Source of the DNA: Flavobacteriaceae bacterium
GTDB lineage: Bacteria > Bacteroidota > Bacteroidia > Flavobacteriales > Flavobacteriaceae
NCBI GenBank assembly: GCA_009886625.1
Contig: QXZA01000011.1
Coordinates: 1 to 64,000, forward strand
Reading direction: 5' to 3'
Length of the DNA: 64,000 bases
Each line of letters opens with the position of its first letter. Position 1 is the first letter of the stretch. The notes beneath the pieces are model-generated. The model worked only from the letters and a program-made list of their open reading frames with translations. It searched no databases and was not told the origin of the DNA. Position numbers and translations under genes: made by a program. Positions 22,705-27,106 of this stretch are shown piece by piece.

Positions 22705-23823
22705 TTATTCATTGAGCATTACCGGCATAACTAACATGGTAACATGCTCTCCTTCTTCCTTATGATCAAGTGGAGTCAGTATTCCGGCTCTGTTAGGTAA
22801 TGACATGGAGAGCTTAATCTGGTCACATTCCATATTGTTAAGCATTTCAATTAAGAAACGAGAATTGAACCCAATTTGAATGTCATCTCCTTGATAATCA
22901 CAATCAAGACGTTCTTCGGCACTGTTGCTGTAATCAAAATCTTCGGCTGAAACCTGTAATGCCGCTCCAGCAATCTTTAAGCGGATTTGATGGGTTGTCT
23001 TATTAGAAAAGATACTTACCCTTCGAACAGAATTTAAAAAGCTGACACGACTTACTTGCATTTGATTGGGATTTTCTTTTGGAATTACCGCTTCATAATT
23101 TGGGTATTTCCCATCAATCAATCTACAAGTTAACGTAGATTCCCCATATCGGAACTGTGCATTTGTATCATTGTATTCAATCGAGATATCTTCTGATATA
23201 GTCTGTAAAATTCCTTTTAAAAGCTGCAGCGGTTTTTTGGGCATAATAAACTCTGAGGTATCATTAGCTTTGACATCACTACGAGTGTATTTCACTAACT
23301 TATGCGCATCGGTTGCGACAAAAGTGAGGGATTCTGTAGAAAATTGAAAAAAGACTCCACTCATGACAGGGCGTAAATCATCGTTTCCACTTGCAAATAA
23401 TGTATTGTTGATTGCAGTGTGTAAAACATCACTTTGTATTATGGTTGTTTTTGCATCACTTACTGAAGCCGCTTTAGGGAATTCATTTCCTTCTGCATAA
23501 GCAACCGCATATTTACCATTATTAGCACTAATTTCAACTGTGTTTTTTTCAGTTTTAATAAAAGTTAAGGGTTGTTCAGGAAATGTTTTTAACGTATCAA
23601 GTAATAGCCTTGCAGGAAGAGCAACCATACTATTGCTTTCAGATTCCACTGTTATTTTTGTAGAAAAAGTAGTTTCCAAATCAGAAGCAGTAAGTGTGAG
23701 ACTGTTTCCATTGATTTCAAAGAGAAAGTTGTCTAAAATAGGGAGAGTGTTTGTACTGTTTATTACTCCTCCTAACATTTGGAGTTCCTTGAGTAGGGCT
23801 GCACTGGAAACTATAAATTTCAT
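22705..23823 (-). CDS. dnaN: DNA polymerase III sliding clamp, beta subunit
   Basis: A ring-shaped processivity factor. The 372 residues form three clamp domains: MKFIVSSAALLKELQMLGGVI at the start, then VSDAKTTI, SGVFFQFS and AHKLVKYTR in domain 2, and a C-terminal VMPVMLNE tail that lines the protein-binding pocket (compare MPMR/L ends in other clamps). It is not next to dnaA or gyrB here, as is common in Bacteroidota. Confidence 0.95.
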   Translation of the reverse strand: MKFIVSSAALLKELQMLGGVINSTNTLPILDNFLFEINGNSLTLTASDLETTFSTKITVESESNSMVALPARLLLDTLKTFPEQPLTFIKTEKNTVEISANNGKYAVAYAEGNEFPKAASVSDAKTTIIQSDVLHTAINNTLFASGNDDLRPVMSGVFFQFSTESLTFVATDAHKLVKYTRSDVKANDTSEFIMPKKPLQLLKGILQTISEDISIEYNDTNAQFRYGESTLTCRLIDGKYPNYEAVIPKENPNQMQVSRVSFLNSVRRVSIFSNKTTHQIRLKIAGAALQVSAEDFDYSNSAEERLDCDYQGDDIQIGFNSRFLIEMLNNMECDQIKLSMSLPNRAGILTPLDHKEEGEHVTMLVMPVMLNE

Positions 23824-23886: not shown

Positions 23887-26274
23887 TTATACCTTCAACT
23901 GTTTACTTCTTATGATCTGATTTATCCCGCCAATTCCGAATCCGAGCAGTAAGGGGAGGAGTAAAAGACATACCTTCCAAAAGGAGGCATTTTGAATGAC
24001 GTTATTCTCATCTAAAAAAGCAACCTTCCAAGTTTTCTTTCTTAAGGCTAAACGCTCTTCGTTGGAGGTTAAGTAGTGGATTCCATTAATGATGAGGTCT
24101 TTGTTAGAATAAAAATTATTGGTCCATTTATCATACCCCAAACTCAAGGGTTGTCCTTTTTCGATTTGATTCTCTGCCAAATTCCCATCGCCATAGAAAA
24201 GGAGTTTTATGATTCCACTTTCTTTGTTCTTGTTCAAAGAAAGGGGTTTAATACGATTGGAGAATAAAGATTTTTTTTCTCCTTCAATCAATATACCAAA
24301 AATTTTGGAGGGTTCATTAAATTGGGAAGGTTGTATTTTCTCTACCACCTGTTCTAAATTAACCAATGCAGGTACAGGAACTGTTTTTGTGAACTTAGAC
24401 GATTGTAGGAGTATTGTTTTTTTTAAGGCATTGGGAAGGGTGTCAATTGGACTGATAAATTGAGTAAGTACTGGACCGAGATCTTTACCAATAATATTGG
24501 TATTTTCTGGGACTGGTAAAGGATAATAGGGCCAAGGATAGGGAATGTACTGACTGTTTTCACCACTTCCGCTTGCCAATACAATGGGTGCACTGTAGAG
24601 ATCTTTTACCAATTCTTTGCGGAGACGAATACCAAAATTAAAAAAATAATCATCCAGATTGAGTTCTTTTGGAAAACCATAGGTCTTGCCTTCTAAATTA
24701 AAAAGACTATCCCTATCAATACTAAGTCCATTTACTAGCCAAAATTGTTTTCCACCTGCTAGAGCATGTTGATCCAGAATGTATTTTTCCGCTTGAGTAA
24801 ACACTTCTTTGGGATTAGAAATGAATAATGCTTCAAAACGATTTAAGTTATCTAAACTTTGTTTAGCACTTACGCCTTCTTTTTTTAAATCAAAGGCAGC
24901 AAGATTGTAATACGGACTGAGGCTTTGAAGTAAGTCAGCAAGTTTGATGTCTTCAGAGGTTTTGTGTGAAGTTAGTACAGCAAGCTTTTGCTTTTCTTTG
25001 AGTGTAATCTTGTGAATACCGTCCATAATTTGATATTCCAATTGTTGTAAAGAACGCACTAGTTTTTGGTTCTCACTATCTCCCAATTGTTTTTGAAGTA
25101 GGGGAATACGTTCAGAACGTTCCCCACTATTGACAATGATCCAAGGGAATATTAAATTTTCATTTCTTTTCCCTTCTTTGTTTTCAACTATAATTTCGGG
25201 AGTCATTCCATAGGCTTGCATTTCCTTCACTACTTCTTCTGTAGAGCCAAGTTCAAAAGGATCATTATAACTTATAATAAATTGATTTGATTGCTTTTGA
25301 AGTTGGTTTAGAAAAGCATCTAATTCGTTTCTAAAACGCAAATAAGGCCCAGGCAATTCTCCAGAAAGAAAAACATCCAACCGTATAGGCTCATCTATTG
25401 CTTTGAGTTTTAATAGTGTGCTATCTGAAAGACTATAACGTTTGTCTTGCGTAAGATCGATTTGAGTATCTGAAAAAGAATTAAGCTGTATGAGGATTAG
25501 AGTGGACAGTAAAAGGAGTAAAGGAGTTTTGATTCCTATCAAAGTGCTTTCCTTTTTTTGTATGAATTGTATTCCTAAAAGCGATAGAGCGCTTAAAAAA
25601 CCAATAAAATAGAGAATTGTTTTTAAAGTCAAAACACCTCTGCTAATACTCAGATAATGAGCCTGAACACCTATTTCTCCTATTATTTTGTAGAGCATAT
25701 TATTTGTAGTAAAATCAGCGAGAAAGGCCCATAAATAAAAATGGGTGAAACAGGTCAAAACTGCTACTAAAAAGGAAGCCACTTGATTTTTAAAGAGAAG
25801 AGATCCAAGCATACTGATTGCCATGAACAAAAGACTAATGAGGATCAAACCTAAGTAGGATCCAGAAAGGCTCCCAAGATCCAAAGAGGAGTTGGACTCC
25901 AATAATGATTCAATAGCAATCAAATGAATGATTGTTGGTGCTAGTGCAATCGAAAACACAATAAAAACACCAAGAAATTTTCCTAAATAAATTTCCCAGG
26001 AGAGTAAGGGTTTTGTCAAAAGTAATTCAAATGTTCCACTTGCTTTTTCTTCAGAAAAGCTTCGCATACATAAAGTGGGTATGAGAATCATAAAAAACCA
26101 AGGTGACAATTCAAAAAAGGGAGTAAAATCTCCAAATCCAGAATTTAAAATATTGAATGGAGTATCAAAAAACCACAACACTAGAGTGTTGATAATTAAA
26201 TAACTTCCTATGATCAAATAGCCTATGGGACTACTGAAGAAAAAACGCAACTCTCTTTTTGCAATGGTCCACAT
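23887..26274 (-). CDS. GldF-GldG fusion, gliding-motility ABC transporter permease/accessory protein
   Basis: A 795-residue protein joining two proteins that are separate in Flavobacterium johnsoniae. Residues ~1-240 are the GldF permease: REL-x-x-FFSSPIGY, six hydrophobic segments, and the MRSFSEEKASGTFELLLTKP loop. The rest is GldG: an anchoring helix, then DLTQDKRYSLSDST, a long periplasmic region and a final C-terminal helix (CLLLLPLLLGFGIGG). Together with GldA ATPase they are needed for gliding in F. johnsoniae. The ATG at 26274 is one base after the DUF62 stop; the TTG at 26283 is a less likely start. There is no stop or frameshift at the junction. Confidence 0.88.
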   Translation of the reverse strand: MWTIAKRELRFFFSSPIGYLIIGSYLIINTLVLWFFDTPFNILNSGFGDFTPFFELSPWFFMILIPTLCMRSFSEEKASGTFELLLTKPLLSWEIYLGKFLGVFIVFSIALAPTIIHLIAIESLLESNSSLDLGSLSGSYLGLILISLLFMAISMLGSLLFKNQVASFLVAVLTCFTHFYLWAFLADFTTNNMLYKIIGEIGVQAHYLSISRGVLTLKTILYFIGFLSALSLLGIQFIQKKESTLIGIKTPLLLLLSTLILIQLNSFSDTQIDLTQDKRYSLSDSTLLKLKAIDEPIRLDVFLSGELPGPYLRFRNELDAFLNQLQKQSNQFIISYNDPFELGSTEEVVKEMQAYGMTPEIIVENKEGKRNENLIFPWIIVNSGERSERIPLLQKQLGDSENQKLVRSLQQLEYQIMDGIHKITLKEKQKLAVLTSHKTSEDIKLADLLQSLSPYYNLAAFDLKKEGVSAKQSLDNLNRFEALFISNPKEVFTQAEKYILDQHALAGGKQFWLVNGLSIDRDSLFNLEGKTYGFPKELNLDDYFFNFGIRLRKELVKDLYSAPIVLASGSGENSQYIPYPWPYYPLPVPENTNIIGKDLGPVLTQFISPIDTLPNALKKTILLQSSKFTKTVPVPALVNLEQVVEKIQPSQFNEPSKIFGILIEGEKKSLFSNRIKPLSLNKNKESGIIKLLFYGDGNLAENQIEKGQPLSLGYDKWTNNFYSNKDLIINGIHYLTSNEERLALRKKTWKVAFLDENNVIQNASFWKVCLLLLPLLLGFGIGGINQIIRSKQLKV

Positions 26275-26275
26275 A

Positions 26276-27106
26276 TTAATCAAATTTTATTGTTACAGGA
26301 TCACGATAGTCCAATCCAAAAAGGGAACTCGCACTTCCCACTGTAAGAGGGTTACTTTTATAAACTGCCAATTCTAAATGTCCTGCAGAGTTGAAAATGG
26401 CAAGTTTCTTTCCATCTTCCTCCCGTTTTTCTTTTGGCAAATTAAAGTCAATTGCCTCACTATAGCTTTGATGAATTTTGCGGAATTTAACGGTTCTAGC
26501 AAAAATAGTAAAGCTTCGTGTTTTACCAATTTCTCTAAAAAGCTTATTCGTGATATTGGTGACAACATTTCCATAATTGTCTATGTAAATTACACTTCCA
26601 AGGATCTGATTGCTTTCTTGATTGATTACAGGTTTGACATTTGTCAGTTCTCGAATTGAGTTGATAGGAGTTCCAATGACTTCCAACGCCCCCTTTCTAG
26701 TTAGGTGTGCAGCAACATGAATGAATACATCCAATAAAGGAAAAGAAGTGACTACAGAATTGTGAATGTTTATAGCAACTGTTTTTTTTGCCTTAAATTC
26801 TTCTTTTATAAGGGAGAAAATACCATTGTCTGCGCCAATAAAAAAATGGCCTTCAAATTCCATAGCCAAATGAATGTTTTCTGGAGTCAGTTCAGACTCT
26901 ACACCAATGATATGTATACTTCCTTTTGGGAAAGCAGTAAATGCATTTTTTAGTATGTAAGCAGTTTCAGAATGATTGTAGGGTGAAATTTGATGCGAAA
27001 TATCAATAATAGTGGCCTCTGGTATATGGTTGAGTAAAGCCGCTTTTATTACTGCTAATGAATAATCTTTATGGCCAAAATCGGTAGTCAACGTAATGAT
27101 GGTCAT
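26276..27106 (-). CDS. SAM hydroxide adenosyltransferase (DUF62)
   Basis: A 276-residue protein of the fluorinase/chlorinase fold. Members without halide activity hydrolyse S-adenosylmethionine to adenosine and methionine. Seen are ITLTTDFGHKDYSLAVIKAAL at the N-terminus (TDFG plus the Asp that binds ribose), the ISHQISPYN segment, GADNGIFSL and IYIDNYGNVVTNI in the C-terminal domain. It is translationally coupled to the gldFG gene downstream (1 bp apart). The functional link, if any, is unknown. Confidence 0.87.
   Translation of the reverse strand: MTIITLTTDFGHKDYSLAVIKAALLNHIPEATIIDISHQISPYNHSETAYILKNAFTAFPKGSIHIIGVESELTPENIHLAMEFEGHFFIGADNGIFSLIKEEFKAKKTVAINIHNSVVTSFPLLDVFIHVAAHLTRKGALEVIGTPINSIRELTNVKPVINQESNQILGSVIYIDNYGNVVTNITNKLFREIGKTRSFTIFARTVKFRKIHQSYSEAIDFNLPKEKREEDGKKLAIFNSAGHLELAVYKSNPLTVGSASSLFGLDYRDPVTIKFD

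Follow-up and report, generated by a model that had tools for sequence, protein, structure and literature searches.

The gldFG locus of the window

On the reverse strand of the window, by which we mean the whole 64,000-nucleotide stretch of DNA analysed here (contig QXZA01000011.1 of assembly GCA_009886625.1, from a Flavobacteriaceae bacterium), GldF and GldG sequences are joined in a single open reading frame. In the ORF listing of the window this frame occupies 23887-26283 (minus strand) and encodes 798 amino acids from a TTG codon. An in-frame ATG at 26274, three codons inside the TTG, is the likely start and gives a protein of 795 amino acids. The features of the locus are as follows.

23890..26274, minus strand: fused gldF-gldG coding sequence, 795 codons, from the ATG at 26274, with the stop codon at 23887-23889; same fused frame in relatives L154-L158
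25558..26274, minus strand: GldF-like permease half, residues 1-239, six predicted membrane helices (TIGR03518, AlphaFold2 model, NosY fold match)
25546..25557, minus strand: junction, a predicted cytosolic turn, residues 240-243 (AlphaFold2 model, positive linker charge)
25480..25545, minus strand: predicted GldG anchor helix, residues 244-265 (model; hydropathy peak at 244-262)
25540..25542, minus strand: TTG at residue 245, the sole alternative start codon in the joint; none at that place in five fused relatives
24010..25467, minus strand: predicted GldG periplasmic part, residues 270-755, with DUF7088 and an ABC_transp_aux/GIFT-like domain (Pfam, model, IFT52 match over 429-743)
23911..23988, minus strand: predicted GldG C-terminal membrane helix, residues ~763-788 (hydropathy, model)
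26276..27106, minus strand: upstream gene, 276 amino acids; its stop codon ends one base ahead of the fused-gene ATG
22705..23823, minus strand: presumably dnaN (beta clamp), judging by its sequence; conserved downstream neighbour, 63 bases from the fused gene

The 276-residue protein, which we take to belong to the S-adenosyl-L-methionine hydroxide adenosyltransferase family, has a homologue adjoining gldF in most of the loci examined. With this gene upstream and the presumed dnaN downstream, the gene order around the fused frame matches that of other gldFG loci; gldG of F. psychrophilum is likewise described as lying downstream of gldF and upstream of dnaN (PMC5682007). The whole genome assembly (1.91 Mb, 30 contigs) contains one GldG match, and the whole fused protein also gave one match, so that no second, unfused copy was seen in an assembly that is 91.65% complete.

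Residues 253-792 match the NCBIfam GldG profile, TIGR03521, with 500.2 bits against a cut-off of 389.85, over positions 5-550 of the 552 in the profile. Membership as GldG is supported by this score, by the full length of the match and by the dnaN and GldF part found alongside. Residues 1-228 match the GldF profile, TIGR03518 (positions 1-227 of 240), with 227.7 bits, which is below the curated cut-off of 288.5, and we therefore call this half GldF-like. The separate GldF proteins of four small-genome relatives also fall below the cut-off (188-258 bits); in other genera, two split proteins and one fused protein score 317-359 bits. Pfam places ABC-2 membrane models (ABC2_membrane) on the first part, DUF7088 on residues 276-381 and ABC_transp_aux on residues 428-730.

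An AlphaFold2 model of the fused protein, run with a 70-row alignment (pLDDT 88.6, pTM 0.82), places six membrane helices within residues 16-239, the anchor helix at residues 244-265 and a further helix near the C-terminus (756-792), the helices being taken as transmembrane with the help of hydropathy. At the joint the model forms a hairpin, in which the sixth helix (217-239) is followed by a four-residue turn (240-243) and then by the GldG anchor helix (244-265). The linker should be cytosolic, since its polar middle has a positive-inside excess of 180 Lys/Arg over 31 Asp/Glu in 45 fused proteins (those with a 49-residue linker, of 58 anchored). When the model was compared with known structures, residues 1-242 aligned with NosY (Z 20.7, rmsd 2.6 over 234 residues, 18% identity); this match, the model helices and Pfam together support a six-helix ABC-2 permease fold for the GldF half. 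The likeness is a structural analogy: in NosY the chain stops after the sixth helix, and the periplasmic NosD that works with it is made as a protein of its own. Residues 428-743 share a fold with the N-terminal (GIFT) domain of IFT52 (Z 20.8 over 217 residues) and with OST48-type subunits (Z 19.5), although those proteins are eukaryotic, have other roles and carry no attached permease. Foldseek recovered the same two groups, NosY for the permease half and IFT52/OST48-type proteins for the GldG part. Searched by sequence with phmmer, the PDB gave no match to the fused protein, and by profile it gave NosY alone, weakly (hmmsearch E 0.0076).

These results bear out much of an earlier note on this DNA, made from the sequence alone. 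GldF and GldG do lie in one uninterrupted 795-codon frame, as it had claimed, and its boundaries were sound, the end at 26274 being right and the start at 23887 taking in the stop codon. Its proposal that the fusion keeps the topology of the separate proteins agrees with the model, where a short turn separates two membrane helices, and with the charge of the linker; the structure prediction that it had called for returned the six-helix half, the cytosolic turn and the anchor helix.

Distribution and origin of the fusion

When 80 named loci were ranked by GldG identity, the five nearest relatives (L154-L158, 63-77% identity) all had the same fused frame without stops, and the next four (L159-L162, 50-56%) had two genes with short overlaps. 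One of the five, L155, is Flavobacteria bacterium MS024-2A, and we infer that the window belongs to the genus of that organism. A maximum likelihood tree of 48 rows was built from GldF, GldG, DnaN and the upstream protein; it includes five further loci outside the named set, omits L187, L192 and L194, and of L195-L233 takes L195, L198, L204 and L209 only. The six fused species form one clade (99*) that is sister to the four split ones (99*), and both are nested in a 39-row clade with 33 split rows. Because the fused species make up a single clade inside split ones, the fusion was gained on the stem of the window's genus from a two-gene ancestor; it is a true fusion, genus-wide and independently gained. 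At three other loci (L192, L197 and L232) gldF is shortened, apart from gldG or absent beside it, GldF not being found at the L232 locus, and these may reflect frameshifts or decay.

The anatomy of the joint was examined with two anchor motifs, YF in GldF and DLTxDxRY in GldG. They stand 49 residues apart in 42 of 52 anchored fused proteins, a count that excludes seven of 59 fused proteins without a fit to the motifs as well as L086, which is cut by a contig end. Split GldF proteins commonly end 20 residues beyond the YF motif (40 of 88 non-fused loci), and split GldG commonly begins 29-32 codons ahead of DLTxDxRY, an ATG usually lying 29-33 codons before this motif. A split GldF tail of 20 residues and a split GldG head of 29-30 add up to these 49, and therefore the proteins were joined end to end with nothing added. 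Fused frames elsewhere in the family and class, such as that of Croceivirga thetidis DJ-13 (L211), have the same end-to-end joint, usually of 49 residues. This length is common to the window and several separate lineages; however, most of the other fused frames, and most of the 49-residue proteins, belong to a clade of their own, and the window's genus acquired the fusion independently of that clade. In the close split relatives of the window gldF and gldG overlap in different frames, so the fusion in its genus needed a frame change plus the loss of a stop. Across the six fused species the frame is kept throughout the joint, with one single-codon gap.

In the family, matches to the fused protein occur in 256 of 299 genomes. 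The best-scoring 148 of these 256 were read at the DNA level, a sample in which fused loci are over-represented since they score higher: 60 carry the fusion, 10 have a single stop in an otherwise continuous frame, 64 are split into overlapping or adjacent genes, and 14 are interrupted by a small gene at the joint, with ~450-490 bases between gldF and gldG. The fusion is common across the family but not universal. The rarity implied by the earlier note does not hold, and of the counter-case that it raised, that fusions might be common in all gliding relatives, the commonness stands and the universality does not. In the class, the fused protein has matches in 275 of 295 genomes; among the matches listed, 13 rows besides that of the window span residues 1-6 to at least 777 with no inner stop, as judged from the alignments. 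The one-stop loci (L005, L007, L008, L009, L010, L014, L025, L051, L057 and L113) end the first frame with TAA, TAG or TGA. We found no description of a GldF-GldG fusion in the papers searched, a set that lay outside key subscription papers, and so we do not claim its absence from print; 'gldFG' as used in PMC5879114 and PMC4832164 means an operon or two genes, not a fusion.

On a family tree of 147 rows, from which L001 was dropped as a duplicate of L002 and L113 was left out as a contig-end fragment of GldF, the fused state needs at least 14 changes, and at least 10 of them are forced by well-supported branches. The one-stop loci are scattered over this tree, nine such rows needing nine changes. 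The 14 changes come from equal-cost parsimony rooted on the split lineages, but their division depends on the costs, ranging from 3 gains and 12 losses to 15 gains and 1 loss, and a forced fused root allows as few as 1 gain; a gain is therefore claimed solely for the window's genus. The fusion is an ordinary variant of two known subunits, whose fused and split states interchange in the family. Since they have done so several times, the likeliest account of the joining is that a stop separating two translationally coupled genes was lost in a near-neutral change, the ends of their products already being next to each other.

It could be argued instead that the covalent link was itself selected, for example by forcing two GldG per transporter. 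The fusion does recur, and it persists in every one of the six species of the genus and in 45 rows of a 59-row clade of the family tree. Its absences are scattered as well, however, ten loci having one stop at the joint and 14 an inserted gene. The linker, too, is variable: over the six fused species its pN/pS is 0.55, against 0.23 for GldF and 0.22 for GldG (synonymous sites being close to saturated), and no other stretch is so poorly conserved, the mean pairwise identity of the linker being 40%. These data therefore do not show selection on the link itself, which we regard as unlikely. A broader suggestion, which we put forward tentatively as possible but somewhat against the odds, is that the gldF-gldG joint is a recurrent break-and-join point. 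The two chains would lie so near each other in the native transporter that loss of a stop joins them with no spacer, and a fresh stop or a gene insertion could harmlessly separate them again. If so, fused lineages would show two GldG per two GldF, and GldG would best be regarded as a domain of the permease; NosDFY carries one periplasmic NosD.

The small gene between gldF and gldG (at L032-L040, L123, L132, L137, L143 and L149; for example L036:4683-5149, minus strand) encodes ~155 amino acids with a hydrophobic start and a BamE-like domain. In 60 genomes tested, matches at 44-100% identity were confined to those 14 genomes and that place, and five other genomes had more distant matches elsewhere. 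The inserted gene may have split a formerly fused gene, since its clade is otherwise fused. Open-frame values near 960 had suggested a GldG-DnaN fusion, which was rejected because the DNA has separate genes and the small inserted gene.

The putative GldA partner and the gliding setting

The gldA that the earlier note suggested looking for elsewhere has a candidate: a GldA-like ATPase is encoded on another contig of the same genome (G000:C27:54795-55682), where a full-length match scores 383.2 bits, just below the cut-off of 402.6. In 28 genomes tested, the presence of GldA tracks that of GldF and GldG, the best GldA hit scoring 341-474 bits in every one of the 20 that have GldFG and no more than 193 bits in any of the 8 that lack it. 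GldM was found in 28 of the 28, and GldJ (over its cut-off) and GldD in 27 each. Because these proteins are kept in genomes without GldFG, the transporter can evidently be lost while the rest stays, which fits reports of some gliding species that lack GldF and GldG altogether (PMC7440613). Two genomes of one genus (g53) differ in this respect, one of G272 and G052 having GldFG with a strong GldA-like hit and the other having neither; this is either a recent joint loss or a consequence of assemblies that are 86-90% complete.

The window genome also encodes homologues of SprA (C10:114555-121877), GldM (C16:179420-180976), GldJ (C13:48091-49725) and GldD (C16:109584-110108). Five matches to the type IX secretion domain CHU_C (L234-L238) lie on contigs C23, C29, C17, C5 and C20, three of them in open frames of 2318, 3901 and 4534 amino acids that are candidate giant surface adhesins.

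A requirement of GldAFG for gliding and for the stability of GldJ and GldK is described for F. johnsoniae only (PMC9127263, PMC8444969, PMC9870892). Compared with GldF, GldG and GldA of that species (Fjoh_2722, Fjoh_2721 and Fjoh_1516), the window has the same two domains in the same order and a GldA-like ATPase encoded elsewhere; it differs in having one polypeptide where F. johnsoniae has two separate proteins, and in its divergent sequence, with the GldF half under the cut-off. The MS024-2A genus is placed in the NS5 marine group, whose species are stated to lack gliding motility (PMC9122927, the available portion of which gives no method for the statement), and thus a role in motility may not hold in the window's lineage. 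One might then suppose that an ABC-2 permease has been fused to a GldG-like domain for some non-gliding function in a planktonic lineage. Besides the statement on NS5 species, this would fit GldF and GldA homologues that score under the equivalog cut-offs, and GldA/F/G-like proteins are reported in non-gliding bacteria of other phyla (PMC7440613). However, GldG is over its cut-off, the neighbours are those of other gldFG loci, and the genome retains GldJ, GldD, GldM, SprA and the five CHU_C-type secreted proteins, so we find a non-gliding function improbable. By analogy with F. johnsoniae, the likeliest role of the fused protein is that of GldF and GldG there, with the two held at 1:1.

A probable single polypeptide and its significance

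Taken as a whole, the best explanation, to which we give a probability of about 80%, is that the fused frame encodes one eight-helix membrane protein doing the work of separate GldF and GldG. Helices one to six would form the ABC-2 type permease half, and from the end of the last of these the protein would run through a cytosolic turn directly into the GldG anchor helix, then into the large periplasmic part and the last membrane helix. Two copies may pair through their permease halves and bind two copies of the GldA-like ATPase whose gene lies on the other contig. Such an assembly would be a machine of the NosDFY kind, with ATP binding and hydrolysis driving movements of the permease and of the periplasmic domain attached to it.

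The continuous frame might still yield two proteins, through internal initiation near residue 245 or cleavage in the turn, and the fusion would then have no structural consequence. A TTG stands at residue 245, where a split GldG would begin, and the linker is polar, short and poorly conserved. However, that position holds no start codon in any of the five fused relatives, and two of 52 fused proteins have an ATG close to where GldG used to begin (linker positions 18-22), whereas split relatives usually have one. Internal initiation at the TTG was accordingly rejected, and the production of two proteins seems very unlikely to us. Because the internal start is not conserved, the fused frame is best read as being made as a single polypeptide, although the 1:1 ratio of GldF to GldG would be fixed only if there is neither cleavage nor internal initiation. 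An assembly or sequencing artefact, in which a stop or frameshift was lost from the data, can be dismissed even though the window comes from a draft genome of 30 contigs, as the same in-frame, stop-free fusion is present in the assemblies of five other species with substitution far above error.

A natural fusion of this kind provides direct evidence for contact between GldF and GldG and for their ability to function at 1:1. Purification and structural studies could work with one chain, and comparisons can draw on independent pairs of fused and split forms. Gene-by-gene surveys may miss or miscount gldF and gldG, because the GldF half falls under its naming cut-off inside a protein whose GldG half passes. 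Finally, a pelagic group reported to lack gliding keeps this transporter together with much of the gliding and type IX secretion set.
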